DNA from: Lutjanus erythropterus
Lineage: Eukaryota; Chordata; Actinopteri; Lutjaniformes; Lutjanidae
Reading direction: 5' to 3'
Length of the DNA: 64,000 nt
Assembly (NCBI GenBank): GCA_020091685.1
Contig: CM034607.1
Span: forward strand, 4,316,630 to 4,380,629
The notes beneath the pieces are model-generated. The model searched no databases. It was not told where the DNA came from and worked only from the letters and a program-made list of their open reading frames with translations. This document shows positions 1,683 to 63,663 of this stretch, piece after piece (position 1 is the stretch's first letter; the number at the start of each line of letters is the position of its first letter). The translations under genes and the position numbers were made by a program.

Positions 1683-1684
<2 letters not shown>

Positions 1685-1725
<41 letters not shown>
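1685..1725. repeat. (TG)n microsatellite
   Basis: An uninterrupted run of about 20 TG dinucleotides. It also produces a spurious poly-His/Thr open frame on the minus strand. Confidence 0.97.
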
Positions 1726-1728
<3 letters not shown>

Positions 1729-3052
1729 GTGGATGAAGCTGTTTAACCAGCCTGGTCTCTTCAATCTGCATACAAATTACACAACTTCACACTTTCAAAT
1801 AGGGCTGCACAAGTAATCCAAAATGTATCAAAATCACAATGTAGCTTTCTGCAGTTTTCAAACCGCAGGTGAAATATTTGTTAAAGGCAGAATTAATAAA
1901 ACTTCAATTGGTGCAGATTCCTGCAAAAAAAAAAAAAATCACACCAAAGTAATTTTAACATGTTTTTCAATCACAGTAAGTATAATGATGTCACAATTAT
2001 CATTACCTCTAATATCACAATTGCAATATAACCATAGATCATATATTAAACACAAATGCAACCTATTCAATATACAGTCTGTGGATCCAACTTGCTATTT
2101 GGACTGCAGGACTCATTTACTGCTCCGTATTGCTCCTTTATATTGTTATAATTGTATCTTTTTTGTCGTGGTATGAATGTGGTATCATTGTTGTCATGCC
2201 CTTTGTAAAAAATGAACAAATGCATAGAGAAAATTAAATCCATGGACCTTGACTTTGTCATCCTGGGGGGAAAATGGCACACAGGATGCTCCTGGAAAGT
2301 AACAGGCTCCTGTTTCCAAATTAATAAATTATTTTTAGACAGTATCAGAGTCATTTATTGATAGTGGCATCAGTATCAAAATGACCCTATAAAAAATATC
2401 AGTTGACATCAGAAGTCAGAGGCTTGTGGCAGGGGACTGCTGGTGGTCTGGCCTCTCAGCACAGGGTTTTTGTTGTATTAGACTCTTTAGAGTTCTTGTA
2501 TCTTGAATTGGTTTGTCTTAATTTAATGTTATCTTGATTTCTGTCTTTCTGTGGGTTGTTTGGGTTTATTGTGGAGTGTTGAAGGGCCACCTTAGGGTGG
2601 GGCGTAACAGTCAGAACAGGGTGGAAGTCTGGATTGATGGATGAGCCGATCAAACACTTTCACCCAGGAGACTGGTGTTAGTGTCCCGTGTGTGAAACCC
2701 AAACTATTTTAATCCAAACTATGATCTTTTCATAAACAAAACAGCTATCAAAACGAGAACCACATGTTTATTTTTGTTCCCATGATGGCAGAGGTCATGT
2801 GATTATGGCTCTGGTCTCAACGGAAATTAATGGGAATAATTGGTGGATCACTTTCATGCAAAATTGCACTTTTTACCACACGCACCGCCTGCAGTTTGCC
2901 AGATTGAAGAGAGCGGGTTGGTTGAACGTCACCTGCACAGCTGACAATGCTCACACCAGTACTAACATGAGCTGTGGAGGTGTATGAAAAAGACAGCGGG
3001 ATCTGATTGAGATGTTGAAGGCTGCAACATGTTAGCTCATGCACATGCATGC

Positions 3053-3105
3053 TCTCACACAGACACAGACACACACACACACCAACACACCCACACACAC
3101 ACACC
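3053..3105. repeat. (CA)n microsatellite, interrupted
   Basis: CA dinucleotides with interruptions (ACAGACAC, ACCAACACACCC). Confidence 0.93.
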
Positions 3106-3872
3106 ACTCCATGCATACCATGACACATAACTTTCACAGACCCGGAGTAAACACCAGCATCCTTGCTCAGTGTTTTCTCATCAAGGAAAAATGTGGATTC
3201 TTTGAAGACTCCTCCCCCACATTTTGGGCTGCTGGCTGTTCTAGGAAAAGTCAAGAGTAGAAATCAATATGTGCACATACAGTACAAGCAGAGAAAATGT
3301 GAGACACACCGCAGCTCCACGCCTGGAGCACTGCTCCTGTGTTTTCAAAGAAAAGGAGGAAACCCTGGAGGCTTTCTATAAATTTGACAGATTCTGTTTG
3401 TGTGAACTTGAAAAGAGAAGAGATGGGAGCTTTTCTGCACAATAACCGTGGTTTAGCTTCCTCTGTCCTCACTATAATTGCACAAAATATTGGATATTGT
3501 TGCCACCATGCCTTCCATAACACCAGCTGGGTTATAAAGCAGTGTTACTTTAAAAATATATTCTGATACAGTTATTAACTTCCTGTTAAAAAATGTAGTA
3601 TTTAAGTTATGTAACTTGTTTATTTTTGTTGTATGTTTTATTAATTGTTCATCCAGGTATTCTTTCCTTCATTATGTGCAAACACATGTTTAGATTAATA
3701 GCGGTAATTTTGCACATTTAAATGTAACTTTATGCTATTAATGCTTCACGCTCAAACTTCAAACAAACTGACATAACACACACACCATCCCAGTGACCAG
3801 CATCATCACACAGTCCTAAAATATTTTTCAGTTGTAGTAGCAGTATTGAAAGGTTAGTTTGCTAACTGGATT

Positions 3873-4482
3873 TCTGTGTAGCTAATGTTAACATTTGGTC
3901 TATGTAGCCAAAGTTAGCACTTGGTCTGTGTAACTAATGTTAGCAATTGACCTGTTTAGCTAACAGTAGCAACTGGTCTGTGTAGCGAATGTTAGCATTT
4001 GATCTGTGTAGATAATGTTACCGTTTGGTGTGTAGCTACAGTTAACATTTGGTCTGTGTAGCTAATGTTAGGGTTTGATCTGTGTAACTAATGTAAGTGT
4101 TTGGTCTGTGAAGCTATGGTTAGCATTTGGTCTGTGTAGCTAACATTAGTTTTCAGTTTGTGTACCTAATGTAAGTGCCTAACGTACCTAATGTTAGGTT
4201 TGGTAGCTAATGTTAGGGTTTGATCTATGTAACTAATGTAAGCATTTGGTCTGTGTAGCTACAGTTAGCATTTGGTCTGGGTAGCGAACATTAGGTTTTG
4301 TCTGTGTAGCTAATGTTAGCATTTGGTCTGTGCAGCCAATGTTAGCATTTGGTCTGTGTAGATAACATTAGGCTTGGTCTGTGTAGCTAATGTTAGCATT
4401 TGTTGTGTGTACCTTACGTAAATGTTTGGTCTGTTTAGCTGAATTTAGCATTTGGTCTGTGTAGCTAACATTAGTGGTTGGT
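3873..4482. repeat. Minisatellite, unit about 26 bp, roughly 20+ copies
   Basis: The consensus unit is approximately CATTTGGTCTGTGTAGCTAA followed by TGTTAG. Copies carry many point changes and small indels (for example CTACAGTTAG, CGAACATTAG, GATAACATTAG), so the array is old. Several units contain GCTAAC or GTTAGC in alternate forms. No gene is associated. Confidence 0.93.
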
Positions 4483-5039
4483 CTTACCTGTATTTTTTCT
4501 TTAATTAGAACTTGAGACAAGATTATGTCAAAATGTCCTAGTGAAAATATTTCTGTCAAGAGGTAATGAATTATTATGATTAGCTGCTTTCACTGAGACT
4601 ACAGTGGTGTTGTGAGATGAAAATGTTGTAATGTGTGTTCACTACATATGGTAGTATATTGTTCTTTACTTAAAATGTATTTTAAAATTATAATCCTACT
4701 AATAATCCCAATTTTTACTAAATGTATCTGTAATCTTATTACATCTTTTTCATTTTGTAATTATAATGGGATACAGTTACCTTTTTTCTATGGGTTCGCA
4801 GGTTCACAGATTCAGATCAGCTGTATAAAACAACACCAAACCCTTTTTTGTACAGAGCACAGAGTCAGGATTCAACAGTGTTAAGTTATCTCGGTGTCCA
4901 GTCAACGCCGCACAGAGTCCAACCTAATTCCTCTGTTTTAAAGTACAAAATCATCAGATGGAAGCAGGAAAGTAGAAAAGGCCAAAGCTGGATGAAAAGG
5001 GAAAGGCTGGACTGGAGCGACCCTGCTCTCTGCCACTGC

Positions 5040-5310
5040 AGCTAATTTACGCCTGCGGTGGAAGTCCATTATTGTCACTTTTGTTTATTTGGGACACTAA
5101 TGTGCAGAAATGGCAATTAGAGAGCCACAAAAAGCACTCAGCTGGATGATTTCTCCCCCTTCCAAAATAAATTGCCATCTGTGGACCTCCGATCTGATGG
5201 AATGGGGTTGTCCTGAAATGCCTCCCTCTGAGCCCCTATATTAGGTGAAACTGCTGGATGTGGGATAAAATTTGGGTTACCTCAATCCCTGTTTCCTCTG
5301 ATGCCCATTT
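5040..5310. promoter_or_regulatory. Candidate conserved non-coding block
   Basis: Non-repetitive sequence of balanced composition, unlike its AT-rich repeat-laden neighbours. It has several AT-core homeodomain-like words (CAATTAGAG, CTAATGTG, ATAAATTGC) and no coding potential. The call rests on texture only. Confidence 0.2.
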
Positions 5311-6643
5311 TTTTTTCTTTATAGCCGCATATACATTAGTCTAAATTTATTTAATTAAACATTTTATCCCATCGAGCCTAGGAGCCAGGTAAATATGCAA
5401 GCTCATGTTTTATCTGCTCTGGCAGATACATCTGGCCACCGTCCCGTTCAGACAGGATAGGATGACGGACAGAGGAACGTCACCAGTCCAGACACGTTTC
5501 AAGTGCAACATACCATGTTCAGAAACTGCTGATCAAATATCAAGATTCTCTCACTGCATTGCCTATTACTCACCTGAAATGTTTTCAGAAACATCTGTAA
5601 TTTGAGAATATTTTCACCAGGCTGCAGTTTTTTTCTGCTTGAAACTGGACCAAGCTCCACCCCAACTTGCATGTGTCACAAGGATCAGTGGACAGAGCCA
5701 CTGTGACATCACCTATTGTTTTGTGGACAACTGTTTTAACCCTATAGGGTCCAATGTATCGATACTGGCATTGTGGGGGCTGCCATCTTGTTTTTTTTGC
5801 ATGATCAGTACTGACAAGAGTGTGGATCTAGTACTTGTACCATGACTTGTGTGGGTGGAACTTGGTTTTGGATCATCTGCCCAGCAGGACATAATGATGA
5901 CCTGGTCCTGATCTTTCTTGTATTACAACTAAACAGTGCACAAAATATGTTTCTGAAAATATTTTAAGCAAAATTTATGCAATGTACTAACAGAACCTTG
6001 ATTCATATTTAATATGTACTGCGTAGTTTTACAAGTTGATCTGAGTTACGGTAGCTCCATCAGTATACCTAGAAACCTTTAAACTCTGGAAGTCTTGGGA
6101 AAAAGTGTTTACTGAGGTCATAAATTAAGTGAGAAGTACGTACAATATAATCAGACTTTTTTTTTGCCACCAGTGGAGTCGCCCCCTTTTCAGACCTGGA
6201 TGCTCCCTCCACTTCCTCTGTCTGTTGTGTCACTCAGCACTACATCACCCATTTCATTGGTCTGATTGGTTGTAAGCCCAAACAGTTGTGTTTTTAGCCT
6301 TCTAAAAAAAACTCCAACTTTGAAGAACAAGTTTTAAAGTATGAAAAAGTATTTCAGGCATCTGGAAGTAAAACACTCATTTTCTTCATAGTCTGCTCTA
6401 GATTGGGGCACTAAATTCCTCTGGTTGAATCATGACTGTGAGAAAATATCTGGTTCTTTCATCAAAGGTGCAAAGCTCTGTACACTGAAACGTAAGGAGA
6501 GAAGTCAACTGTTACTCACAAGCAGAGTTCTTCTGAGAGATATCTTTGATATCAGTTGTGCACAGCAGTAACAGCAGCTAATAATCACACTTTGTAGAAA
6601 CCTCATAATCAGCAATTTCAGTTTGTTCACTTTTCACTTTTTC

Positions 6644-6919
6644 TTAAAGCGGTAGTTCACCCAAAAATGAAATTTCACTCAATATCTCCTCACCCCTGTG
6701 CTGATGTGAGGATGGGTGTTTCACAAAACACTCCAAAACACTCCCAGAGCTTCAGTGGAAAACAGCATTGCAGCCAAATCCAGTACAATTGAAGTGAATG
6801 GTGACCAGTTTTAAAATGTAAAAAAACTGTGAACTGGAGATCTTCACCCATCCTCACATCAGCACAGGGGTGAGTAGATATTGAGTGAATTTTCATTTTT
6901 TAGTGAACTATCGCTTTAA
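6644..6919. mobile_element. 275-bp palindromic MITE, TTAA-bounded
   Basis: Two 75-bp arms (6644-6718 and 6845-6919) are near-perfect inverted copies, each starting TTAAAGCG(G/A)TAGTTCAC and including CACCCCTGTGCTGATG. They enclose a centre of about 126 bp. TTAA occurs at both outer ends, which could be the TTAA target duplication of piggyBac-type transposons or simply part of the inverted repeat. It has no coding capacity, so it is a non-autonomous element. Confidence 0.88.
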
Positions 6920-7049
6920 AGTGGATTTTAGATACATCTGGCATCAGTCACAAAGTGTTTTGTTCTGAATGGCAATGAGGAAGCATAGTAAGTGGAGGTT
7001 GAGTTGAGATTACTTTGGCAACTGTTGTGTCCAAGACCATGAATTCGAA

Positions 7050-7930
7050 TAAGGATGGGAACTGATAAGATTTTATTGATACAAATGCTGTTATCAATTC
7101 TGCTTATCAGTTCAATTCTTTTTTTTTTTTTTTTTTTTTGCAATTTATGTTTTTTTACTGAGAGAATTCCATAAATTATTCATCATCCTGACTTCGCCAT
7201 AGGCCTTTTACAGCATGACTCTCATTTTTTAAAATAATCAAATAAAAAAGAAAGACGAAAGTACAAGACAAAGAACAACATTCAAAATCAAGGCAACTAT
7301 TTAAAAGAATCAAAACCAGACAAAGAGTGACCAAAAAAGAAAAAAAAAACAGAAGAGCAGACTGGAATAAAACATTTTACATATTTCTTTAATTCACTTT
7401 AGACCTCTAGTAGGGAAATAATTGTGTCTAATGTTTACACCCAAGAAATAAATTACAAAATATAATAACCAGGTTCTATGGTTTTAGATTACTGTACCCA
7501 TTTGGCCCAGTATGACTGGAATCTACTTAGTTGCACCTTTAAAGAAAATGTCAACTTTTCCATAAAATAAATATCCTTAGTAATTTCATGTAATTCTTGT
7601 GATATATGTGATTCAGGCTGTAACTGTTTCCTAGTTATGTCTTTCTTACATGCAGCCAAAATTATTTTAAGTAAATACTTGTGTCTTCTTGTCTTCTGCC
7701 TAAATATAATACATCTTTATCAATTCCTGATAAATTTTCTGTGCAAGAAAAAGTCTTACACAGGTTTTCAGCATCACTGCAGCTGTTTTCTTCTCTCCGA
7801 GTCTGACTGCAGAGTAGAAACTGTAAGAGAACAAAGTACTGCATGTGACTCACATGTGAAAAAGCTGTTGAACTGCTTTTTAATTTGGTACCGGCTCTGA
7901 ACTGGGAGCAGTCGTCAGTTCCCACCACTA
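7050..7930. mobile_element. Possible non-autonomous DNA transposon
   Basis: The left end has GGATGGGAACTGATAAG and the right end CAGTTCCCACCACTAATT, imperfect inverted partners (GTGGGAACTGA). The interior is AT-rich with a poly-T run at about 7119-7139 and no intact transposase. Boundaries are approximate. Confidence 0.4.
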
Positions 7931-10192
7931 ATTATGACACAGGATATTTACTTTCAGTAACGAACGTGCTGCCGACTTTGGAAGCGCTGACACTCGCGTG
8001 CAGAGTGTCAAATACACACGTTCCTGGAATTTAAACCCATGTTGTGTAGAAAATAGTTTCATTATATTGCTGTTGTTTTCCACCCTGACTTGAAATGATC
8101 ATTTTACAGACACTGCTGTCATCTTTTCTGCTCGCTGGAAGTTTCCAGCAGCATAGACACATGAGCTGACGTCATTGTTTCACAATACGCGACTGTCATT
8201 CTGACAACAACAGGTGATGCTGATGACATATATTGTGCGAGACGAGAGATGTAGTTCCCAGAGCAGTTTCACACTAAACTACAATCAACCTACCACAAAT
8301 GGTGACTTGTAAAATTATCTTTTCACTCGATAAAACAAACGTGGAACTGATGCCACAATTCAAACAATTCTAACGCGATAAATTGAGGAATTTTTACCAC
8401 AAAACCAGAGTTGGTGATTATTATAACAGTGGAAAGACTAACTGAGGTGGTTTTGGTGAGTTTTATCATTTTTTTCCTGTCTGCAAAATTTAAAGAAAGG
8501 CAATTAAAGCTTGTCTTAATTTGGCAAAAGAGAGAAACTTGAATTCAGAAAGTGTTCAATTATATTTTTCTGTTTAATAAGTAAACTTTTGTGAGTTAAT
8601 TTTGTTTATTTTGTTGCACATCTTCCACTTTTCATCTTATTGCTTTTAATAAGATAGTTGTGTTATAAGATTGAGCCATTAATACTTTGATTCTACTTTG
8701 TGCAAGAAAATATTTGAGATTGTTTAAGTGTATATTTGCCTCTAGGTCTAGGTAGGTAGGTCTATTTTATCTTTAAATTATCAGTGCTGAGGAACATTGA
8801 GGATAACTATAAAAGTAAACCTTCATATTGGAATTTATATTGGTCTTTTGGAACCAACAGGCCCTCTCATAAACTCTATTTAAAAAAGAGCTGGATAAAG
8901 TTTATTGTTTATAGGAGAATTTGATCAGAGTTTAGTTTAGTCTCAAGGCTTAACAAATGTAAGATTTTACCAGCTTGAAACTGGACCCAAAATGGAATCA
9001 GTTTTGAAAATCCAACAATGGTGAGATATCATTTCCCCTCAGCATCTGGTCTAACTTGGAGCCAACTGTTTCCCTCCAGTCTCAGTCAACAGACTCAGCC
9101 ACTGTCTATATGACATGGATACTGCAGGAGGTTATTGATACAAATGTCCCCGTGAGGAGTTTCACTTTCACACTTTTCAGCATCCTTCCTCTTCTGTATG
9201 CACGTTGCAGCCCCATTCATTGCTTGTTTTCCATCTATCTTCTTATATTTGTTTTTGCCAGAAAATATTTGGGCATCTATTTATCTTATCTGTTTGTTTG
9301 TGTCCTCGTCTGAGCTTTAGAAACCAGTTGTATGGATGAAGCAGCTTTCAGGCCTTCCCCAGCTGTTGTCTGGATATTAAATGCTCTCTAGGGTGGAAAG
9401 CAGCAACCGAAGCAGAGTTTCCTGTAATGCTTTTCAAGCCAGCTGTTCTTCCAGTGCAAAGGAATTATGGAAGCTGCAGCTAATACTTTTTGCATTTTCT
9501 TTCTTTCTCAGCGTGTTGACAGTGAGTTTTTTGAAACAGCATGTAAACTGAGTTTCAGAATGGAAGTCTTAGTGGTTGGTTGTTTTAATGGTTTATTTAA
9601 TTAGAGGTTTTTCCTCATCATTACACATCACTGGTAACATGATTGGGACATGTATGACCAGTGGCGGACAAAGGCTGGGGCAAGGGTGAAAATAATAAGG
9701 GCACCGGCTGCATGGTGAGGCACCAGCATGCTGAAAATCCTGATGGACTCGATCACATTTAAAAGTTATTTTACCACTTTTTTTTTTTTTTTTTTTGCAC
9801 TGAACGGCACTCTAGAGGGCAGTTCCTTATGTTTTGCCGAGTTAAAAGGGCAACCTAGAAGGCACTTTACCACATTTTGTCCACTGAAGGACACTGTAGA
9901 GGCCAGTTTCTCATATTTTGACCACTATAAGGGCACCTTAAAAGTCACTTTACCACAATTTTTTTGCACTGAATGGTACTCTAGAGAGCACATTATCACA
10001 TTTTGTCCAGTGCAAGGGCAACCTAGAATGCAATTTCTCAAGTTTTCTCAAGTTTTGTCCACTGGGGGACCACTCTAGAGGGCACATTACCACATTTCGT
10101 CCACTGAGGGACGCTCTAGAGGGCACTTTATCACATTTTGTCCACTAGAAAGGCACTTTAGAGGATTTGTCCACCAGAAGGGCACTCTTGAG

Positions 10193-10567
10193 CAGTGTTT
10201 CTCAATCCTGGTCCTCAAATACCCCTGCCCTGCATGTTTCCCTGCTCCAACACATGTGATTCAAATGATCAGGGCCCCGTTTCCCAGAGCCTTCGTAGCA
10301 CTACGTGTGTCGTAAATTGTATTTTAAGGTCTCTCTTAAGGTTGTCCCAACTCTGGGAAACAGCCCGTAACCTTAAGGGAGACCTTAAAATACAATTTAC
10401 GATGCACGTAGCGCTACGAAGGCTCTGGGAAACGGGGCCCAGGTTGTTGTCAGGCTTCTGCAGAGGCTTGATGACGAGCTGATCATGTGAATCAGGTGTG
10501 TCAGAGGAGAGACACATCTAAAACATGCAGGGTAGAGGTCCCTGAGGACCAGGGTTGAGAAATGCTG
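10193..10567. mobile_element. hAT-like MITE copy 1 (carries nested MITE)
   Basis: The ends are CAGTGTTTCTCAATCCTGGT and, inverted, ACCAGGGTTGAGAAATGCTG. They are flanked by CTCTTGAG (10185-10192) and CTCTAGAG (10568-10575), a target duplication with one mismatch. The interior inverted arms include GATTCAAATGATCA and TGATCATGTGAATC. Another palindromic element is inserted at 10272-10440. An 8-bp duplication and CAGTG ends fit the hAT superfamily. Confidence 0.85.
10272..10440. mobile_element. 169-bp near-perfect palindromic MITE, nested
   Basis: It begins GGGCCCCGTTTCCCAGAG and ends with the exact inverse CTCTGGGAAACGGGGCCC. The arms pair along most of the length (GCCTTCGTAGC with GCTACGAAGGC; ATTTTAAGGTCTC with GAGACCTTAAAAT). 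It sits at the middle of the hAT-like MITE, so it is the later insertion. Confidence 0.92.
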
Positions 10568-10700
10568 CTCTAGAGGGCACTTTATCACATTTTATCCACT
10601 AGAAAGGCACTTTAGAGGACACACTATCATGATTTGTCCACCGGAAGAGCACTCTAGAGGGCATGTTAACACATTTTGTCCACTGAGGGACACTCTAGAG

Positions 10701-10910
10701 CAGTGTTTCCCAACCCTGGTCCTCAGGGACCCCTGCCCAAAAATTCAAATTGATCACATTTTCCCCACTGGATTCAAATAATCAGCTCATCATCAAGCCT
10801 CTGCAGAGGCCTGATAACAACCTGATCATTTGAATCAGGTGTGTTGGAGCAGAGAAACATCTAAAATATGTAGGGCAGGGGTCCCTGAGGACCAGGGTTG
10901 GGAAACACTG
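10701..10910. mobile_element. hAT-like MITE copy 2, perfect 8-bp target duplication
   Basis: Same family as the 10193 element: CAGTGTTTCCCAACCCTGGT at the left and ACCAGGGTTGGGAAACACTG at the right are exact inverted repeats. It is flanked on both sides by CTCTAGAG (10693-10700 and 10911-10918). It is 210 bp, without the nested insert. Confidence 0.93.
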
Positions 10911-11668
10911 CTCTAGAGGGCATTTTATCACATTTTGTCCTCCAAAAGGGAACTTTAGATGGCAACCTAGAGGGCACTTAATCAGCCAGAAGGTAAGACC
11001 CTTCAGGGTGGATACAGGTTATTTACTGTCTTCCAGGATTAATGGTTTGTGTCTGGACTAACACAGAGCCAGTTCAGTTCAGTTTCTCTGTGCAGATATG
11101 ATTTGCATTTGTAGACCGTGTTAACAGTTAAAGATCACTACTCATGTGTTGAAATGCTGTCAAATGGACATTGAACAAACATCGTAAAATCCAGCAGTGA
11201 TAAATCATCCCAACCTGAATGTTCTAACCTGTATGTAGGACAGTTTTCATTTTTGGTTATCTGATGGTTCTTGTGCTCATTTTAACTGCATTCAACATGA
11301 TGAAACATGTAGACACTCCAGATTATAATGGCATCTGCAGCATTCAAGAAAAAAGCCTTGGAGCTCGCTGAAAGAGACTCTCAGATTCTCACATTATACC
11401 ATTTAAACTGTAGGCCTTATGTAAATGGACTAGAATATTTTAGAATAGGAATGGTGTTTTTATAGAACAGCATGACATTGTGCGATCAATCCTGTGTAAT
11501 TGTGATTCACATGAGAACATCAGGGGGAAAACTGTGTTTTTGTTGCTTTTTCTTATTCCTTAACCACGTCTATCTAGAAAGGTGTTTTCGTCAGGAACCA
11601 CAAAATGACGTTACTTGTCCACCCCACCCTGCTCTGCCTCATTTCTGAAATCTACTGCATGTTAGGTA

Positions 11669-11990
11669 GAGCTGCTACAATCAGTCGATCGAAAGTAAGT
11701 TAGTTGCCAAGTGTTTTGGTAATGGATTAATTGTTTCAGTCATTTTTCAAGCAAAAATGTCAAACATTGGCTGATTCCAGTTTCTTAAATGTGAGGGTTT
11801 GCTGCTTTTTTGTCATTTATGAGAGTAAATGAAGAGTCTTCGTCTTTTGAGCTGTTAGTCGGACAAAAGAAGCAATCTGAAGACATCACCTTCAGCTCTG
11901 GGAAATTGTGATGAACAACTTTTGACATCTGGAGACTACAAGTGATGATGAAAATAATCAACAGATTAATTAGTTGCAGCTCTGATGTTA
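11669..11990. mobile_element. AT-rich TIR repeat family, copy A
   Basis: The ends are AGAGCTGCTACAATCAGT and, inverted, TAATTAGTTGCAGCTCT. The interior has TTTTTCAAGCAAAAATGTCA and GCTGATTCCAG motifs shared with 33060-33260. It resembles a common teleost repeat that begins and ends with AGGGCTGCAAC-like sequence. Confidence 0.7.
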
Positions 11991-13714
11991 ATTTTATCAT
12001 TCTGAGGGGCTTTTCAGACACTTGGTCTGTTTCTAGATGGTATTTCATGTCTCACCAGTACACTAAACAACACCTCCACTAACACACTCCCCACTGCACA
12101 ATCTTGGAACACACTGGTTGCAATCAGTTACCTGTTTAAGACCGCTAAATGACAGCTAATGTCTGCAACAACAAGTGGTTACATTTTTCATTAGGCTCTA
12201 TAGACGCTAAATTGGCAAGACTGTCTCAAGTTGTCCCACTGGATGTCTGCCTGGAAGCTCCAGAAGAGCTACTAAGTGGGCCTTGAAGTGAGATTGCTTT
12301 GTCAACCAGAGCACAAATTGTAACGTTGCTCTCGTCTTCCACCACTAGTCTCATTGAGAAGCCAGATCCCGGAGTTTGAGCTGGTAAACCAACAAACCGA
12401 AGTGGGTTTACGCTGTACTACTTCTACATAACCAGATCTATCTCCACAGTACTGTGTCAGTGCTAGAGAACATTATCATCCTACTAAAGTGGAAAAAACA
12501 GTTTGCCTGGTTTGTGTTCCCAGGATGCACCAACAGTACCGCTGCTAAACTGTCGTGGGGAATCAGGCTGGATATCGGTACTCAATAATTTTAAGGTATT
12601 GACCGAAATAACTCAGTCTTGAGTAGTATAAAAACTTCTGCAGCCTAATGATACTTGTACCCAGATCTACAAAGAGTTGTTTTGCTTGCAGCCAATCACG
12701 TTCTCTGATTTAATGCAATGTGTGGTAGGCCCGTCACCACAGCAGCTACAACCTATTCAGTCTATATATAGTGTGAGGAAGTTGAGTGTGGTCTCTTTGA
12801 CTGAGTTGGCAGTTCAGCATGCTGAGATGACTCCAGAACAATAGAAAAGGTATTTTTAAATGATAGTCCAGTCCTAGTGGGGAACTTGTTTTCTTGAGAC
12901 TCGCTTTAAAATGGCTTAATCCAGTTCTGTATGTTTGTACCATTAGCCATTTTTAGCGTGTAGCTTGCGAGCTCAGAGGTTGTTGTTGTTTCCTGTGTTG
13001 ATGGGAGCTTTGAATACGCAGGCAGCAGATATGGTGAGTGCCGCCTGAAACAGGACTAACCTGAACAGTTAAAATAACATCACAAGTACAAGTCAGTTTT
13101 TTTCTGAACAACCTGCATAGGAAAATAAAATTCACTGATCACTGTCTGGTTTGCACCAAGCCAAATTTCAAGCAGGATAATAAATGCTGAAATGAACTGA
13201 GGTCTTGAATGATCATAGATCATTTTTTGAATAGCTTCAGTACTTTTGATACTATCAAGTGTGTGATTAACAGAGATTGTATAATTTTAAACACATGGTA
13301 TCGAAGAAGTATCAAAGTATAAATACTTTTGACAACCTTATCAGCACTAATGAAAACTATCAGTAACCTTTAGTGTACCTTATTGTGTAGTAATGCAGAT
13401 TAGGGAATGTGAATTACTTCTGCTCAGCATTTTCACGTGTCTGTGTTAATGAAATGTTATATTGACCAACAGAAGGAGGACTGACCCAAGACTGCAAATC
13501 TAGATTCTGTAATCCTGATCTTGTGGTATCTGGATTAGAATGATCCTACCTGAAAATTATTTGGCAAAGCAGGATAAAACCTACAAGATCAGTTTTATCT
13601 GAGTTAGGGGAAAAATGGACCCCTGGTTGGGAACCAAAGTCCTAGCTCATAGTAATATATTTTGATTTATTAGTTGATGTATGTTTGGTATTAATAATCA
13701 AAAATTAAAGTAAG

Positions 13715-13867
13715 GTGTAACTAAAGCTGCCAAATAATTGTAGTGGAGTAAAAAGAGTAGAAGTATAAAGTAACATAAAATGGAAAGTACTCAAGTAAAG
13801 TAAAAGTACCTAAAAACTGTACAAGTACAGTACTTAAATTAATGTATTTAGTTATTTTCCACCACTG
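13715..13867. repeat. Interspersed repeat rich in AAGTA words, copy A
   Basis: Contains GTAGTGGAGTAAAAAG, AGTACTCAAGTAAAG and CAAGTACAGTACTTAAAT, ending in TTTTCCACCACTGG. A related copy lies at 61985-62335. This pattern is widespread in fish genomes and is of DNA-transposon-derived type. Confidence 0.6.
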
Positions 13868-13945
13868 GTGTGCATGCATGCATGTGTGTGTATGCATCAT
13901 TTGTCTGTGTGCATTTCTAGTGAACTACAGCAGATCATTTGTCAC

Positions 13946-13948
<3 letters not shown>

Positions 13949-13976
<28 letters not shown>
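13949..13976. repeat. (CA)n microsatellite
   Basis: About 14 CA repeats. Confidence 0.95.
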
Positions 13977-14521
13977 TCACTCATCACTCAGATGAATGTA
14001 ACATTTTATGCTTTTATTGTGTTTACTCACTTACTTTTTTATCACACTAAGAATGTGACAGAGAAAAACGAATAAGCAAACATTGTAAATAAAAAACCTG
14101 AGTCCTGACACTTCTAAAGCTCGTTATGAGGTTGTGGAAACTGTTTTTCTTTTCAATGTTTGACCACTAGATGTCACCCTACACAGAGACTAAATGCCAC
14201 AAGGGCTTTAACATCAGAGCAGTGTGTGTGCAACACAGTAATAGCTGCATCACTGAATGTCTCCTGCTCTGCAAACAGAAGCATCAAACACCGCTTTCTG
14301 TCAGATTTATCCAGCTGAAGAGGCTGATTGCATCCAATTAGTTGCTCTTTTTTTTCCCTTTTCACACACAATTTCAGTTGTTTGTTAAAATGGCTCAGCA
14401 GGGACGGACGATGCTGAGCAGAGAACAGCTCATTTTAAGAGTGTTGTTATTATCAGCTATAAGGAATGCAGTGAGTGATTGATGGGTTCTTGGCTCTGTG
14501 TTCTCTTAGGTAGGTACCCAG

Positions 14522-14560
14522 ATGTCTGAGGAGGCTCTGAGGATGACGTCTTGGCCTTGA
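14522..14560 (+). promoter_or_regulatory. Upstream ORF in the TRbeta1 5' leader
   Basis: A 12-codon ORF (MSEEALRMTSWP, then TGA) ends 11 nt before the TRbeta1 start codon, in the same inferred exon. Its own ATG begins right after a possible CAG acceptor (AG at 14520-14521). Translation of it would be expected to lower or gate initiation at the main ATG, as upstream ORFs commonly do. Whether it is in the mature leader depends on which acceptor is used: the TTAG ending at 14509 or the CAG ending at 14521. Both retain the ATG. Effect on translation is inference. Confidence 0.4.
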
Positions 14561-14571
14561 ACCCCACCAGT

Positions 14572-14578
14572 ATGTCAG
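14572..14578 (+). CDS. thrb: thrb TRbeta1 first coding exon (7 coding nt)
   Basis: The coding part is ATG TCA G, followed at once by a strong donor (GTAAGA). The split codon is completed by AG at the start of the exon at 17297, giving Met-Ser-Glu. The start has A at -3 (CCAGTATG). The exon probably begins at 14510 or 14522, after a pyrimidine-rich tract with two candidate acceptors, so most of it is 5' UTR. The joined N-terminus, MSEPAEKCSPRWKDEAMQN, closely resembles the short A/B domain of teleost TRbeta1 proteins, which lack the longer mammalian A/B region. No other ATG-bearing exon with the right phase was found upstream. It is easily missed because the coding part is only seven bases. 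Confidence 0.85.
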
Positions 14579-17296
14579 GTAAGACGTCCGGCCTGATCAC
14601 CCAAACACACACTCACAGCCCCAAACACCCAGGGTTTATTCCAAGTAAGCTTTATAGTGCAACTACACTGAATTTTAAAGTTGCTGATAGCTGATATTTA
14701 AGCCAATTTTCACTAAATCTAATTTTGGCTTGTTTGAAAAGAAAGTATTCCACCATTCCCCTGATTTATATTCTTGTCAGCAATAGGAAGTAGACTGTAA
14801 TGGACATTTTGTGATATTTTTTTGCAAACTTAGGTCTGGGACCTTAAACGCATTCAATCTGACAATCCAAATCAGTTTAAAGTTTAGCCTCTACACGTGA
14901 TCAGTGGCAGAATCACTTTGCACTGCCTGCAGGTGTGTGAGTCTTTCTATAGAGAGAGCCAAGAGGGCTAACCTTGCCGCAGTGCGATTCGATTGTACAC
15001 CTCGTCCCTGTGCTCAAAATTCAGCCAGTTTCAAGTCTGGCCTTTTGGACCTTGAGAATGTTTCATCAGCTACTGTTTCCGAGGTCTAGAATACTGAGTC
15101 AAACTCATTTTAAACCGACATGGATGTGGTCTAAAGGCGTGCTGAATCAAGGAGGTTTTAAATTTTTTAAGCTTCCCTGAGGGGAAGCCTCCCTTTCGCA
15201 CGCTTATCACATTCACACAGTCACAACTGGAAACTGCCCAGTATGACCACAGTCTGATCTGCAGTGGCACTGAGCGGCTCAGCTGGAGCCGTTTGGGTCA
15301 AGGGTCTTGCTCAAGGGCAAGACCACCACTTCCCGACACTTCTGTGGCAATTTAGAAAAAAACAATGTGCTGATGAAGATAGTGCAATGCGGTCAAAAGC
15401 TCCAGAACTAACATGTCTTTAGACACAGCACACTGCGGTTGCCAAGGTCAAGAGTGAACCTTTAAGTTCCACTTTGACCTTGTTGGTCATTAACCTGTCT
15501 ATGCGCAGCTAATGAGATGGCAACCATCTGTGATGTAACATGAAAGACACGGACAAAAAAGCCAGATTTCTGTCCAGCCTTGAATTGCAGTTCATTTTTG
15601 ATTTCCAAGGGGCACAGACCAAAAAGCATCTGCACATAATTGGACAGACCTTCCTAAAAACTTGCCCACCTGGTCGCAAACTTTCTCAGACTACACCACT
15701 CAGATTGGTTTCTGAAAAACATGCGATGTTAGAAATAGGCAGTGCAGTCAGAGAATCTTTCATATTTGATCAGCACTGCTGCGTTTGAGGGTTTGATCTG
15801 AGTTTCAAGCGCCTGGTGTGGTCAAGACTTTTCAAATCTGGACTGATGACACTCCTCTGTCAGACGCCGTATCAAACCTGCCCCATATTGAATAAACGGA
15901 TGTGATTGGCTTGACAAGACCCAAGTTTGGTGAAAATCTCTCTGAACGGGACCAGACTTACCAGAGCAACTGAAACATGAGCTTGCAGGTTTATCTGCTT
16001 CCCAGACAAAGTTGTAGAGCCAAAATCTTGCTGTAATGACAAAAGAATGTCAGAATGTCAGTAATCACATGGTGCTACCAGATTTGCTCTTGGAATATAG
16101 TGAAAAACAGGTGCTTTTTTTTTTTTTAGCAAACTGAGACACTTTGCCTCAACTCTGCTGCACTCTGTGCCCCTTCTATAGGCTGAGACATGCTTCTCTG
16201 GGCATTTAGGTGAAGGTGGTCGTTCAGAGACTTCCACACATCTGTTTCCTTCCTACTTGTACACACAACTTGTTGAGCATTTTCATTTGATCACTTGAAT
16301 CGCACGTGAGCTTGTCGTTCAAATGTAGGAGGTGTTGGTCCTATATCAGGCTGCACCTTTCGCTGTATTGGTTTGCAGAACGTAACTCCAGCTTTACATA
16401 GTACACAGCTCGTACCACTGATCATGTGTAGAGGGCATCAGAAAAAGACCATTACCATCTAAAACTGACTTTGACCACCAGAGGACTCCGTACAGCACAG
16501 CACAATGTAGTGAACACTGTCCTCTGGCACCAAGAAACAAAAACTCTTGTGATGTGAGCAAACAATCCCTAAATCATAACATACAACATAAAATCCAGCT
16601 GAAAATCAGTTGACATTCAAAATCAAACCCTATAATCTCTATAATCACAAGTTCAGTCTTAAAAGTGTAGCTGACAACAACTTTTTTACCGAGCAGAAAT
16701 GACATCCTTTAATTTTTAATGGCTAATGATTTCTAAGTTCTCAGTTTGATCTTGGAAAAAGCCACACTCCTTTTCCACACCCTTAACATCTATTATCATT
16801 CATTCAGTGCACACTAGACTCCAAAGCCGTTTAAGGACACACTAAAGCTCCTGAACAGGATATACGTGTTGCTGTCTGCAGACAGGTTGACCCATACATT
16901 GTACAGACAGTTCAGACGTGTGCGTATTTACTCAACATAGATACTCTAGTGTCCAGGGCGAATCGGCCGTCACGTGTGGATTTAGCCGGTCCCGCTGACC
17001 TGACTAACCCGGCACATATGTTATCGATCTCTGTACAATGAACACCAGCTTACACGTATCACATGAGGAAACGAGCTTGATCCCCTCACTCACTGTAACA
17101 CCAGACCCCCCAGACGACAACACGCTGACAGGATGATGTTTCTGATGCTGCTGTTTAGGATAACCTGCTGTTTTAATGAGCGTCTGACTGTTTGATTTGA
17201 TGTGAGGAGCAGAGGAGCGTCAGCCTGCCTCTCTCAACCTGTTTCACTGAGCAAGTAGATATTTTTTTTTTAAAGTGCCTCTCCCATCTATTTTAG
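14579..17296 (+). other. thrb TRbeta1 first mapped intron
   Basis: A 2.7-kb intron from GTAAGA to TATTTTAG. It contains no recognised genes. A unique, less AT-rich block with several CpGs (about 16900-17110) precedes the 51-nt exon and could be regulatory. Short open frames at 14.9-15.8 kb have no recognisable homology. Confidence 0.8.
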
Positions 17297-17347
17297 AGCC
17301 AGCAGAAAAATGCTCCCCCCGCTGGAAAGATGAGGCCATGCAAAATG
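17297..17347 (+). CDS. thrb: thrb TRbeta1 second coding exon (A/B domain, 51 nt)
   Basis: This exon encodes residues 3-19 plus the first base of Gly20: E-P-A-E-K-C-S-P-R-W-K-D-E-A-M-Q-N. The acceptor is CTATTTTAG preceded by a T-rich tract, and the donor is GTAATA. Entering in phase 1 from ATG TCA G and leaving in phase 1 into GG TAC ATT CCA gives an unbroken frame into the zinc-finger exon. The alternative AG two bases downstream would create an early TGA, which decides the acceptor. The CNPRWKDEAMQ-like motif is typical of fish TRbeta1. The exon is exclusive to TRbeta1, since TRbeta2 transcripts start downstream at about 38.3 kb. Confidence 0.92.
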
Positions 17348-31889: not shown

Positions 31890-32470
31890 ACAATTAATGT
31901 TAGTTGGTAGGACTTTAGAATTACCTTACAAGATAATGTGTTAATGAGACTATATGCATTAATAATAGCATATTAACTCTCAACATGCTGATTGTTAGAT
32001 TATAACAATACGGCTCCCCTCTCTTCTTTCTCTCTGCAGGTGTCACTGTCCAATTAGCTGTTAATAAGTGCATAATAAAAGATTAATTAACCTTAATAAG
32101 CACTGTTCACACGTTAGATCTGGTACACTCAAAATGCATAATTAACTGTTAATAGGTCCATGATAAAGGATTTATTACCCTTAATAAGCTTTGTTCACAC
32201 TTCAGATCTGGTACTTCCAAAATGCATAATTAAGTGTTAATAAGTGCATAATAAAAAGTTAATTAACTTTAATAAGCATTGTTCACACTTTGGGTCTGGC
32301 ACTTCCAAAATGCACAATTAACTGTTAATAAGTCTATAATATAGGATTATATAACCTTAATAAGTATTATTAACAAGTTTCTTATAAGTGCTTATAAATG
32401 TCTTATAAGCTAGCAATAAATATGTTAATTATAATATTCTTAACAGTTACATAGTCTTATTAACACATAT
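31890..32470. repeat. Repeat with about 85-bp internal tandem units
   Basis: Four tandem units, each with AACTGTTAATAAGTGCATAA, TAATTAACCTTAATAAGC and TGTTCACACTT-AGATCTGG. The segment begins after TCTCTCTGCAGGTGTCACTG. The same family lies at 43117-44103, where terminal inverted repeats are clearer. Confidence 0.8.
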
Positions 32471-32579
32471 TTTCTGTTTTCTGTATTTGAGAGAAAGTAA
32501 AATACTTGAGAGTTGAAATATATTGTCATCTAAAATAAAAGCACCTCAGCAGGTGATTATGCTTTTAACTTTAACTATT

Positions 32580-38355: not shown

Positions 38356-38701
38356 ATGATGAACTACTGCATACCGGACATGTACGAGGTGCCTCACGCA
38401 GGGATGGATGGCTACATGGTGCAGGGCGGTGGGGAGCACTGCATGTACTCAGGTGAGGGGCACGGGTACGGACACTGTGAACCCCAGCCCCTGCACCATC
38501 ATCCGCCCTGCATGATGGAGCAGGCTTGGCCGCCCAGCCAGCACTACTCCTGCTCATACGCTGGCGGCCCTCCTGTTTTTAAGAGCGAGTTTTGCAGCAT
38601 GGAGATCCCTCTTAGTCACTTCCATCACCAGCCTGAATATTTCCCTGACTTCAAACCTGACTTCTCTCACCTGCAGTGGATGCAGGGGGCGCATAAGAAA
38701 G
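38356..38701 (+). CDS. thrb: thrb TRbeta2-specific first coding exon
   Basis: This alternative first exon encodes residues 1-115 plus one base of Gly116 of TRbeta2. It opens MMNYCIPDMYEV and is rich in Tyr, His, Pro and Met. Its second half, with PPVFKSEFCSMEIP and DFKPDFSHLQW, matches the pattern of the TRbeta2 A/B domain, the activation region of the cone and pituitary isoform. The donor is G|GTGACT and joins in phase 1 to GG TAC ATT, exactly as the TRbeta1 exon does. Two ATGs are adjacent. The first (38356) has T at -3; the second (38359) has A at -3 and gives the MNYC start usual in other vertebrates, so initiation at 38359 is equally likely. The exon sits inside the long TRbeta1 intron, 1.2 kb before the shared exons, as in other vertebrates. 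Confidence 0.95.
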
Positions 38702-41327
<2,626 letters not shown>

Positions 41328-42156: not shown

Positions 42157-42362
42157 TGGTGTTGGACAACAGCAAGAGGCTGGCCAAGCGGAAGCTAATC
42201 GAGGAGAACCGGGAGCGCCGTCGGAGGGAGGAACTGCAGAAGACGGTGTGGGACCGACTGGAGCCCACCCAGGAGGAGTGGGACCTCATCCGTATGGTGA
42301 CTGAGGCCCATATGGCCACGAACGCCCAGGGCAACCACTGGAAGCAGAAGCGGAAATTCCTG
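42157..42362 (+). CDS. thrb: thrb shared exon: hinge and start of the ligand-binding domain
   Basis: The 206-nt exon encodes residues 103-171: hinge ([20 protein letters not shown], also the nuclear localisation region) and helix 1 of the ligand-binding domain ([20 protein letters not shown]). It ends at KQKRKFL. The acceptor follows a very long pyrimidine run of TCC/TTC and C repeats ending CCCCCAG. The donor is CTG|GTGAGA, leaving phase 0. A VLDNSKR reading replaces the more usual VLDDSKR, a mild difference. Because this exon ends in phase 0 and the 45550 exon starts in phase 0, the intervening 27-nt microexon can be included or skipped without a frameshift. Confidence 0.97.
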
Positions 42363-44465
42363 GTGAGACGTCCTCCTCCTCCCTCCCTCCTCACCACAGC
42401 CCTCATTGTATTGATTACCCTGCCTTATCCAGTCCACCCCCAACCTCCCCGTCCCACCCCTCACAGAACCCCCCCCCCCGTCCATATCGTACCCCTGTCT
42501 CCTCCACCTCCACCTCCACCACTGTTCCACTGTTCCCTGTGTTAATATGTCCATGTGTTTTTTTGTATCTCCTTGTAGAGTGGGGAGAATTAGCTGGACG
42601 ATGGAGAAAAGTGTGTTCCTCAACGCAGCAGCACTAATTTATAATGGAACATCTTATTCTTGTCTTTTTTATGGCTTTCCGAGCAATGATCCTTAATCAC
42701 TAATACTAATAATAACTTGCTTTTTTCATGCTGTTTCATTTTTCTCTCTTTGTGTTTGTAGCTTTTGATTTCACACCTCACCCTTTGTTGACTAATTTGT
42801 TTTCTTATCTGTCAAGTGTAAAATTGCTCTGTCCAGATTGAAAGTGCGTCTCAGCTGTTGACTTTATCTTGGGTTTCTATGGCGTGATCAGAACGAACAC
42901 TTGCACACTCACGTAAAAGTGAATGGACTCGTTTTTTTTTAAACCGCCGTGGTAGAGGAGTTCTCATCCATTGTGGAATTTGCGGCGTATTCTTAAATTT
43001 TGAGAGTACTGGAGATGTCACATTTGTTAAATTTTCCAAAAGTCACTTCACACGCATCAGTTCATAGAAATATAGTGAAATCTATTTCACTACTTCTGTT
43101 TAATTTTGTAAGAATGTTGGGTAACACTTGCCTATGCCTATTGCTTCTAACAGGCATCAGCTAATAAGTAATAAGGCCTTCATAAGATGTTTATTAACAC
43201 TCACATGTGTTTGAATAAAAAAAACAAAACAAAACAAATATACTGTGGGATATAACATTACCATGCATGCTTCAAATTACACTGTGATGTATGAATTTTA
43301 GGCCATACTGCCCAGCCTTACTTTGGGCTGCATGGTTGTATGAAAGGTGCTTCATAAAAGATGTTGAGTTGAGTTGAGATGAGCTGAGTTGAGTTCAGTT
43401 GGGCTCCATTTTCATGAAATCCTTCAGTAGCTCACCTGGTGCAGTGCGTGCTTCATGACTCCAGCTTGTGACGTCCCCTCTCCCTTCTCTCTGCAGCTGT
43501 CACTGTCCAACAAAGACAAAAAGCCTCTAAATACTAATAGTTCAAAAGAAAGGTGATGATTAACCAGTAACAAGTGCATAATAAAGGAGCAATTAACCTT
43601 TAGCTCAGGTACCCCCAAAATGCATAGTTAACTGTTAATAAGTGCAGAATAAAGGTTTAATTAACCTTAATAAGCACTATTTACTCTATAGATCCGGCTC
43701 CCCAAAAATGTAGAGTTAACTGTTAATAAATGCATAATAAAGGATTAATTAACCTTAATACGCACTGTTCTTTTTTTTTTTAGATCTGGTGACTGTTAAA
43801 ATGTGCATAATAAAGGGGTACTTAACCTTTATAAGCACTGTTCATTCTTTAGATTCGGTACCTTTGGAACTGCTAATAAGTGCATAATAAAGGATTAATT
43901 AACCTTAATCTTTAACCTTAATCTTAAACAGTCTATGAACTTTTAATCAGTGTCTTAGAAGTGCTTATAAAAGTCTTATAATCTCGCAATGCTTACATAG
44001 TCTTATTAACACAAATTAATGTTAATAAGCATCTTATGAGGGCCTTATTACATATTAACTAAAGCTTGTTACAAGTACCTTAATATGAAGTGTTACAACA
44101 TGGGGTAAAAAAAGTTTGATTAATTGAAGTCATTTAAGGGTTTTGTTTAAACTGTCGTCCATTGTTTACAATAGAATAATACATTTCCGTGTCGGCGACG
44201 GTCGTTGGAGTGTTTCTGAGGACCTGTTTGAAGTCGTGGTCCTGAGCCTGACTCTCACCATAGAAACCCATCCTGGATTTCTGTCCTCACCTGTTTTCTC
44301 TCTGCACACTCTTTCATCTGTCCTCAGTTTAACTTGTTTTCTTTTTAGTTGGCTTGACACGGGTTCTTCATTGAAACTTCACGATTCCTGTTGATTATCC
44401 AACAGGTCGAGGAAGCTATGCTTCTTAATGAAATAACATGTAATTTATTCTATACTTCTGACCAG
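42363..44465 (+). other. Intron before the microexon
   Basis: From GTGAGA to CTGACCAG. Its start is C/T-rich (42370-42540) and continues an open frame that is not coding. The 43117-44103 TIR element takes up about half. The last 360 bp (44104-44465) is unique and is the likeliest place for splicing-control sequences of the microexon. Confidence 0.75.
43117..44103. mobile_element. TIR element with internal tandem TTAATAAG repeats
   Basis: The left end, GGGTAACACTTG...TAATAAGGCCTTCATAAGAT, is the imperfect inverse of the right end, ATCTTATGAGGGCCTTATTA...GAAGTGTTACAAC. Inside are about five units with GTTAATAAGTGCATAATAAA and TTAATTAACCTTAATAAGCA, the same family as 31890-32470, both after a TCTCTCTGCAG-TGTCACTGTCCA segment. 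It lies 360 bp before the microexon. Confidence 0.82.
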
Positions 44466-44492
44466 AGTGCAGCGGGGGTGAAGGAAACTAAG
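44466..44492 (+). CDS. thrb: thrb 27-nt cassette microexon (SAAGVKETK insertion)
   Basis: Between KQKRKFL and PEEIGQ lies a 27-nt segment, AGT GCA GCG GGG GTG AAG GAA ACT AAG, flanked by CTGACCAG and GTAAGA. It is in phase 0 at both ends and adds nine residues, S-A-A-G-V-K-E-T-K, after residue 171, in the N-terminal part of the ligand-binding domain (helix 1 to helix 2 region). A nine-residue insertion of this kind at this place is known from long TRbeta isoforms of several teleosts and is absent from tetrapods. The segment is too short to be found by ORF scanning. Mature proteins are 395 residues with it and 386 without. That it is alternatively used here is inferred from other fish. Confidence 0.9.
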
Positions 44493-45549
44493 GTAAGACA
44501 CAGCAGAGAAAAATAATTATTCCAACCGATGTAGGGCCTTTCAGCCTGTATAGTTTCATCACCAACATCAGTGTTGAGGATACGGAATATATTTACATGC
44601 ATAATATATTTATTTAAGTGTGGTACAAATACGAGCGTTACATGTCTACAGTACAGAAGCTCTGAGAGGAATGTGAGCCATTTATACATTTTTTTCTTCT
44701 GTGAAACAGGTGGGAAAACCCTTTTTTTTTCCAAAATTTTTTGGGGGGTCAGCATCATTTTTCAAAACTCCAGATGACTTTAAATTTCTTCACGCACTCA
44801 CAGCTAGTCTGTGCCAATGACTCCCAAAATGAGATATATTAATGGTAGAGAGTACCTGCAGTTTTTTATATCATGATAATATCAGTGAGTGAATCAGGAA
44901 ACTGAGAACACTGACATAATTTGCTAACATGCAAACTGTGTTTAGAGTGTATGAAGAAATTGTAACTCAGCTGGAGAAACATGGGCAGGTGGTGCACTTC
45001 AGCCTCTTGTGGTCAAAATGAGTATTACAGCAACAAGTAATTGATTGACTTGAAAAAAAAACTTTCACCTATCAAAACTTTTTTTGCACAGCAAAAAACT
45101 TTTATTCTACCTGTTTCACAAATTAAAAGGAAAAAAATCTGAATTTAGAAAGGTTTTTTTCACCTGCTCTTAAGTCAGAAACACAGGAGAGAAACACATT
45201 AGATCAAATGCTTCACCAGAATTTTTTTCTCGCTTGCCTCTCAGGGCTTCCATACTGTAGTGACTATTGCCATTTTTACGTTTTTACATCACATCACTTA
45301 GTCAAAATCTTGCTAAACCAAAAGTAAACCACTTCACATAGTGTTAATTTATCTCACCTTCAAGTTACTCCATTTTTGTATTTGACCATTTATGCTTTAC
45401 CCTTCTCATGTTACCTTTGAGCTTGTTACATACGTTATGTTTTTGTACATAAAGGCTAATACCGTTCTTAATAGATGAGCTTTGTATTTTTGTACTCAAA
45501 TTTGGAGAGGTTGTTCAGACACTGACCTTCTCTCTGTTTGCTGTTTCAG

Positions 45550-45696
45550 CCTGAGGAAATTGGTCAAGCGTCCATGGTCAATGCACCTGAAGGAAACAAA
45601 GTGGATATAGAAGCCTTCAGTCAGTTTACAAAAATAATCACCCCTGCCATAACCCGAGTGGTGGACTTTGCCAAAAAACTGCCTATGTTTTGTGAG
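45550..45696 (+). CDS. thrb: thrb shared exon: ligand-binding domain, helices 2-3 region
   Basis: The 147-nt exon encodes residues 181-229 of the long form, from [19 protein letters not shown] to KKLPMFCE. It includes the omega-loop region and helix 3. The arginine in [10 protein letters not shown] is the counterpart of human TRbeta R282, a ligand carboxylate contact, and is kept; the lysine-rich end of helix 3 forms part of the coactivator groove. The acceptor is GCTGTTTCAG and the donor GAG|GTAAGT, with both ends in phase 0. Confidence 0.98.
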
Positions 45697-47219: not shown

Positions 47220-47501
<282 letters not shown>

Positions 47502-49680: not shown

Positions 49681-49922
49681 ATCGGTCGGGCCTGAGTAGC
49701 GTGGAGCGAATCGAGCGCTGCCAAGAGGAGTTCCTACTGGCCTTTGAACATTACATCAACTACCGCAAACACAAAGTGGCGCATTTCTGGCCCAAGCTGC
49801 TAATGAAGGTGACGGACCTGCGGATGATCGGCGCCTGCCACGCCAGCCGATTCCTTCACATGAAAGTGGAGTGTCCCACCGAGCTATTCCCTCCTCTCTT
49901 CCTGGAGGTCTTCGAGGACTGA
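49681..49922 (+). CDS. thrb: thrb last coding exon: helices 9-12 and AF-2
   Basis: The 242-nt coding part completes Asp316 and runs to the stop TGA (49920-49922), long-form residues 316-395. It contains [36 protein letters not shown], the ligand histidine in GACHASRF (human H435), and helix 12, PLFLEVFED, which recruits coactivators on hormone binding. The protein ends directly after FED, as TRbeta does, whereas TRalpha carries extra residues. The acceptor is TTTTGTCATCAG, entered in phase 1. The exon continues into the 3' UTR. Confidence 0.98.
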
Positions 49923-62743: not shown

Positions 62744-63469
62744 CTAAACATTTTTCGCCAGGAAGACAAGCCTGTCCACTACCTCAGGCTTGAGGCATGC
62801 ACGGTGGCATGTGCATTCTTCTTGAAGAAGGCAGCTAAAGTCATTGGGCAGAGGCTGTTCTTCTTCACACACCTGCACAGCTGGACCAGGCTGCTGTGGT
62901 GTACTCTTGTCAGCAGGAGCAAGAGACATGAGTTCAGTGAACACTCCTTCCAGCTCCGTAGCGATCCTTTGGCGTGTACTGTTATACAGCTGAGGCAAGG
63001 CAACTTCAGAAAAATGTTTGCGGCCTGGTAGCACGTACCTGGGATCCAAAACTTTCAGCAGGTGAATAAACCCCGGCTTTTCCACAGTGTATATGGGCAC
63101 CATATCTCTTGCAATATACATCGCGACTGCATCCGTGACAGCTTTCCACCGGGCTCCTTTCTTATCGTACGGGATACAGTTTGTCAATGTTTCCAAGACG
63201 GTAGGTTGTTTTTTGGTGGCGGTGCTTGGGCTGCCGCGGTCTTGTTCATTTCGTAGGGAGCAACACCTCTCCCACTTGGCAGCATGCCTCTGTTTGAGGT
63301 GCTGCAGTAAATTGGTAGTACTGCTAACTTTGGTAGCAACAGCCTTTAAACAGACTTTGCAGCGAGGTGCTGTTTGTTCTGTGTCTGACGCCACAAACCC
63401 GAACCAATTCCAAATAACTGAGGATACGTTTCCTTTCTTCGGAGTGAACTCTGCACCGCTTGCGGCCAT
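62744..63469 (-). pseudogene. hAT (ZBED-like) transposase remnant with the core deleted
   Basis: A 241-codon open frame. Residues 15-65 are a BED zinc finger with C37-x2-C40 and H57-x4-H62. Residues about 85-150 (VLETLTNCIPYDKKGARWKA, TVEKPGFIHLLKVLDPRYVL) match the N-terminal part of hAT transposases and ZBED1-like proteins. The C-terminus (CLKPEVVDRLVFLAKN) matches the very end of the hAT dimerisation domain. Intact family members are about 600-700 residues, so the catalytic RNase H-like core between about residues 215 and 222 has been lost by an in-frame internal deletion. The element is non-autonomous. An unrelated expressed gene is unlikely because the terminal hAT sequence lies just beyond. 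Confidence 0.85.
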
Positions 63470-63663
63470 GTTGTTTGTGTATCAAACATAGGTATCAAGC
63501 GCGGGGGGAGTTTGGCACGCACTCCGCGCTCTCTGAACTGCGGGAGCCCAGCAGGCAGGCGCTGGTGGCGGATGTTGATGAGAAAATCGATTTTCATTAA
63601 AACAAATCGACATTAAGTACAAATTCGAATTAATCGATAAAATCGATTTATCGCCCAGCCCTA
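63470..63663 (-). mobile_element. 5' terminus of the hAT element
   Basis: Read on the minus strand, the end is TAGGGCTGGGCGATAAATCG, followed by more ATCGATT words, a typical hAT terminal sequence in fish. The opposite terminus, below 62744, was not found, so that side is truncated or diverged. Confidence 0.6.

Follow-up and report, generated by a model that had tools for sequence, protein, structure and literature searches.

A probably optional nine-codon exon of thrb in Lutjanus erythropterus, with a candidate second acceptor for the L-TRbeta1+ form

We have analyzed a window of 64,000 nucleotides (nt) from Lutjanus erythropterus (assembly GCA_020091685.1, contig CM034607.1, positions 4,316,630 to 4,380,629, forward strand), which contains thrb, the gene for thyroid hormone receptor beta. 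One of its introns contains a 27 nt exon coding for nine residues of the ligand-binding domain, SAAGVKETK. As judged by its sequence, this insert is already in print: it is the teleost thrb exon which separates the short receptor, S-TRbeta1 (exon skipped), from the long one, L-TRbeta1. The exon probably has two acceptors, the distal one located 60 nt upstream of the other. We consider it highly likely that this is the alternative exon of S-TRbeta1 and L-TRbeta1, whose splicing would set the ligand preference of the receptor and whose distal acceptor would give a third form, L-TRbeta1+. Positions are those of the window unless a contig is named, and the features discussed are collected in Table 1.

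The 27 nt exon and the teleost L-TRbeta1 insert

The exon at 44466–44492 is real. It reads AGTGCAGCGGGGGTGAAGGAAACTAAG, which gives exactly nine codons, it is flanked by AG on the 5' side and GTAAGA on the 3' side, and both junctions are in phase 0. The nine codons lie in frame between the RKFL and PE segments of the neighboring exons; when these are joined with or without the 27 nt, both reading frames are open and contain no internal stops. Within the ligand-binding domain, the insert is placed after the RKFL segment, following the residue equivalent to L246 of human TRbeta1. The original prediction had described the exon in the same way, and its sequence, coordinates, borders, translation and phase are all correct.

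The gene is thrb by comparison of its product, which is nearer to TRbeta than to TRalpha. A 491-residue form which includes the 27 nt exon contains the Pfam domains zf-C4 (1.9e-30) and Hormone_recep (2.9e-18). Among structures in PDB, its top TRbeta match has a value of 8.7e-152, the top TRalpha match 2.4e-141.

Long and short forms of fish TRbeta are known, as had been pointed out beforehand. L-TRbeta1 differs from S-TRbeta1 by nine residues inserted into the ligand-binding domain, as described in tilapia and zebrafish (PMC6517622, PMC6427925, PMC5678081, PMC9322486), and a difference of nine residues between long and short TRbeta1 is also given in PMC7681243. Primers for zebrafish l-thrb1 and s-thrb1 are printed in PMC6427925, which allows a direct comparison. 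The reverse complement of the l-thrb1 reverse primer matches our exon, plus the first two bases of the exon starting at 45550, in 17 of 19 bases. Its exon part matches 15 of 17 bases at 44476–44492, while the runner-up site in the intron reaches 12 of 17. The s-thrb1 reverse primer matches 17 of 21 bases across the skip junction, and the forward primer common to both forms 18 of 21. The predicted products in the window are 154 and 134 bp long, the same sizes printed for zebrafish. The exon is related to the zebrafish exon in both sequence and length (17/19 primer bases, 154 bp); since the primers fit the exon as well as the included and skipped junctions, and the product sizes also fit, it is identified independently of the original prediction. 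The comparison covers 17 of the 27 exon bases, with two changes with respect to zebrafish (GCC to ACT here, A to T).

The human receptors lack this insert. It is the sole gap in two printed alignments, with the ligand-binding domains of human THRB and THRA, neither of which has a counterpart after the position of human L246. Among the 60 matches to solved structures listed, out of 128, there are 30 thyroid hormone receptor chains (23 TRbeta and seven TRalpha), and in all 30 the span of our protein exceeds that of the chain by nine residues.

A candidate second acceptor 60 nt upstream

In PMC6427925, a further isoform is described whose insert has 20 residues adjoining the nine: L-TRbeta1+ of metamorphic species, also found in zebrafish and "probably generated by alternative splicing" according to this paper. 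With a guide restricted to l-thrb+, 30% of the zebrafish crispant larvae were affected (PMC6427925). In the window, the AG at 44404–44405 is placed precisely 60 nt 5' of the 27 nt exon, and the stretch in between continues the reading frame without a stop. An acceptor at 44406 would give an exon of 87 nt, coding for 29 residues (9 + 20), so that 20 codons preceded by AG are found in frame beside the nine. On the 3' side, the frame closes seven codons beyond the nine; therefore a downstream extension cannot give 20 residues, and we have ruled out a downstream donor as their source. With an open stretch of 60 nt behind an AG and no downstream option, we propose that L-TRbeta1+ would arise from the distal acceptor. 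In the parts of PMC6427925 available to us, no origin of the 29-residue form from a tandem acceptor is mentioned.

The likeness between this 60 nt extension and the 20 residues of teleost L-TRbeta1+, or zebrafish l-thrb+, is one of length, which is the sole feature compared. There is also a difference, as zebrafish l-thrb+ has its own N-terminal part of 111 residues (PMC6427925).

The extension might be a chance open stretch behind a chance AG, and not part of an L-TRbeta1+ exon. Two observations weigh against our proposal in this respect: the agreement with the published isoform is of length and not of residues, and a further in-frame AG at -54 means that the one at -60 is not the only candidate acceptor. 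In addition, in 20,000 dinucleotide shuffles of 44100–44465, the frame is open over 60 nt in a fraction of 0.37; in the window itself, the nearest in-frame stop upstream is at -111. On the other hand, an AG appears at exactly -60 in only 0.040 of the shuffles, and both features coincide in 0.0154, just 1.5%; moreover, 60 nt is the length which the published isoform needs. On balance, a chance origin appears unlikely, although it is the least improbable of the alternatives discussed here.

If the distal acceptor is indeed used, the exon with its two acceptors, together with skipping, would yield three forms of the ligand-binding domain, each of which could be combined with the first exons of either TRbeta1 or TRbeta2. 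With the TRbeta2-type start, the proteins have 482 residues when the exon is skipped, 491 with the 27 nt exon and 511 with the 87 nt exon, without internal stops in any of them. With the TRbeta1-type start, which joins a candidate 7 nt exon to the second exon at 17297–17347, the corresponding lengths are 386, 395 and 415. The candidate, ATGTCAG, is the sole match of the searched pattern within 1–17296 and completes the receptors of 386 and 395 residues which the original prediction had given for the skipped and included exon. The first coding exon at 38356–38701 is the one we take to be of TRbeta2 type.

A three-form reading based on the distal acceptor is what our analysis adds to the published work. 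In its widest version, the two acceptors 60 nt apart and the skipping of the exon would be a three-way switch (0, 9 or 29 residues), so that splicing alone could decide between a response to triiodothyronine (T3), one to 3,5-diiodothyronine (3,5-T2) and a third response; in teleosts generally, L-TRbeta1 and L-TRbeta1+ would share this tandem acceptor as their genomic basis. We lean slightly towards this wide version. In any case, a tandem acceptor would explain in concrete genomic terms how the longest published form arises, which may be simply tested in any fish genome.

Table 1. Position of the thrb exons and splice sites in the window. Splice scores were obtained with a rough matrix and ranks refer to the intron.
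Feature	Position	Strand	Basis or value
Candidate TRbeta1-type start exon, ATGTCAG, 7 nt	14572..14578	+	phase and length fit
TRbeta1-type second exon (EPAEKCSPRWKDEAMQN)	17297..17347	+	
First coding exon, presumed TRbeta2 type (MMNYCIPDMYEV...)	38356..38701	+	
DNA-binding-domain exon 1	39918..40018	+	
DNA-binding-domain exon 2	41091..41238	+	
Upstream coding exon, ending ...KQKRKFL	42157..42362	+	sequence, structure matches
Proposed distal acceptor AG	44404..44405	+	score 4.07, rank 12/173 AGs
In-frame extension of 60 nt (VEEAMLLNEITCNLFYTSDQ), candidate part of L-TRbeta1+	44406..44465	+	length equal to the published 20 residues
Proximal acceptor AG	44464..44465	+	score 3.77, rank 16/173 AGs
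Alternative 27 nt exon, phase 0, SAAGVKETK, L-TRbeta1 insert	44466..44492	+	sequence, frame; zebrafish primer match and product size
Donor GTAAGA, common to both exon forms	44493..44498	+	score 7.19, rank 1/197 GTs
Downstream coding exon, starting PEEIGQ	45550..45696	+	sequence, structure matches
Ligand-domain exon	47223..47481	+	
Final coding exon, including stop	49681..49922	+	

Splice sites and use of the exon

Splice sites were scored with a rough matrix and ranked within the 3.2-kb intron, which contains 197 GTs and 173 AGs. The matrix is a poor judge of acceptors, because the constitutive acceptor at 45550 only ranks 7, while that at 41091 scores 2.62, less than either 44466 (3.77) or 44406 (4.07). 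As constitutive acceptors are placed as low as these, the scores cannot settle whether the exon is used in a steady or a regulated way. We had considered the weakness of the two acceptors as a sign of regulation, an idea which we have dropped, as both values fall within the range of the other acceptors of the gene (2.62 to 8.73). Another acceptor, at 44349, has a higher score (6.48) and would add 117 nt in frame; it was rejected, there is an in-frame stop at 44355.

According to papers on other fish, both the long and the short form are made; by analogy with tilapia and zebrafish, we infer that the exon is alternatively used in this species. It might be constitutive instead, always included so that the short form is never made. 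The donor, the best of all GTs in the intron, agrees with this, and acceptor scores inside the range of the gene allow steady use; even so, we consider constitutive use improbable. Still less credible is a relic exon, intact in sequence and no longer spliced in: the proximal acceptor is not outstanding among the AGs of the intron, but frame and borders are intact and 15 of 17 bases are kept with respect to the zebrafish primer.

No UGCAUG or GCAUG motifs, associated with the control of microexons, are found in the 200 nt on either side of the exon. These flanks contain UGC at 47 and 163 nt upstream and once downstream, as well as several YCAY and CUUCU sites. These are raw motif counts, which decide nothing.

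Possible effect on ligand response

In tilapia, 3,5-T2 acts through the long TRbeta1 (PMC6517622, PMC5678081, PMC9322486), with a dissociation constant of 0.2 nM given in one review (PMC9322486). Splicing the exon in or out may set the ligand preference of the receptor in Lutjanus erythropterus, with the second acceptor 60 nt upstream yielding the 29-residue type of L-TRbeta1+. The insert could loosen the segment near L246 and R243, letting a smaller ligand act. R243 is found three residues before the insert site, L246, and R243W is listed as a resistance mutation in PMC9559826. According to the same paper, R316H shifts helix 1 together with the loop that follows it, and ligand binding and dimerization both require a stable helix 1. 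If the choice of splice sites does set ligand preference, fish would be able to switch which thyroid hormone a cell hears, with no new gene.

Several points weigh against this account of ligand preference. The published reports conflict: according to the review PMC7681243, the long form is activated by T3 and T2 while the short one is activated by neither, whereas in PMC5678081 the short form is activated, solely by T3. T2 is also reported to activate human TRbeta1, in which the insert is missing (PMC6517622). In view of this response and of the conflict between papers, the insert may account for only part of the effect. In zebrafish, a guide common to the thrb forms gave only minor effects on shape, with 32% mortality (PMC6427925), and no guide specific for the nine-residue form appears in the parts of this paper available to us.

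The original prediction of a skippable exon which could tune hormone response is in agreement with the tilapia and zebrafish papers; its two products should possibly be extended to three. We have found nothing on the insert in the accessible parts of PMC8852717, PMC6587363 and PMC7691524, and our search of the open literature gave no paper in which "microexon" is paired with "thrb".

Copies in the genome and paralogues

The search of the whole assembly (937.6 Mb, 444 contigs) gave a single thrb gene, on contig C17 of our numbering. DNA searches with 42200–42362 and with 44406–44500 gave one match each, the query itself. In a protein search, the downstream exon matched three loci: thrb itself on C17, one paralogue on C20 and another on C19, both paralogues at 71% identity. 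The ligand-domain exons of these paralogues are located at C20:27672811-27672957 and C19:18725826-18725969. We take both to be thra genes, which fits the two thra genes described for teleosts.

Paralogues were scanned for 27 nt stretches with both splice borders. The whole matching intron was covered in the C19 paralogue, where the best of 57 such stretches scores 7 against SAAGVKETK (42 against itself); therefore a similar exon of this length appears to be absent from that gene. For the C20 paralogue, 10 kb were scanned, and the upstream exon lay beyond that stretch.

Inverted repeat and other features of the window

The intron also contains an inverted repeat upstream of the exon. Its arms of 68 nt are 82% identical, and its outer ends, read by eye, are near 43118 and 44103. 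The distance from its end to the distal acceptor is about 300 nt, and to the proximal one about 360 nt, the latter as the original prediction had stated of a terminal inverted repeat (TIR) element deserving attention. The distance is correct; the attention does not appear to be justified, since this is an ordinary dispersed repeat and no link to the exon was found. A search of the genome gave at least 119 matching pieces, including the query (40 of 873 candidates were scored), and no full-length match other than the query is found among the matches listed. Control of exon inclusion by this repeat, suggested by its position in the same intron, some 300 nt from the distal acceptor, is very improbable: the repeat is dispersed in the genome, with a second, partial copy in the window itself, and other fish are known to have the optional exon. 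We have set it aside as cause or regulator of the exon. The copies in the window, at 43118–44103 and the partial one at 32015–32471, belong to a repeat with inverted ends and internally repeated units.

Finally, the minus strand at 62747–63481 is open for 245 codons and codes for a BED zinc finger (Pfam 4.1e-07); it may be part of a hAT-type transposase or of a ZBED gene.
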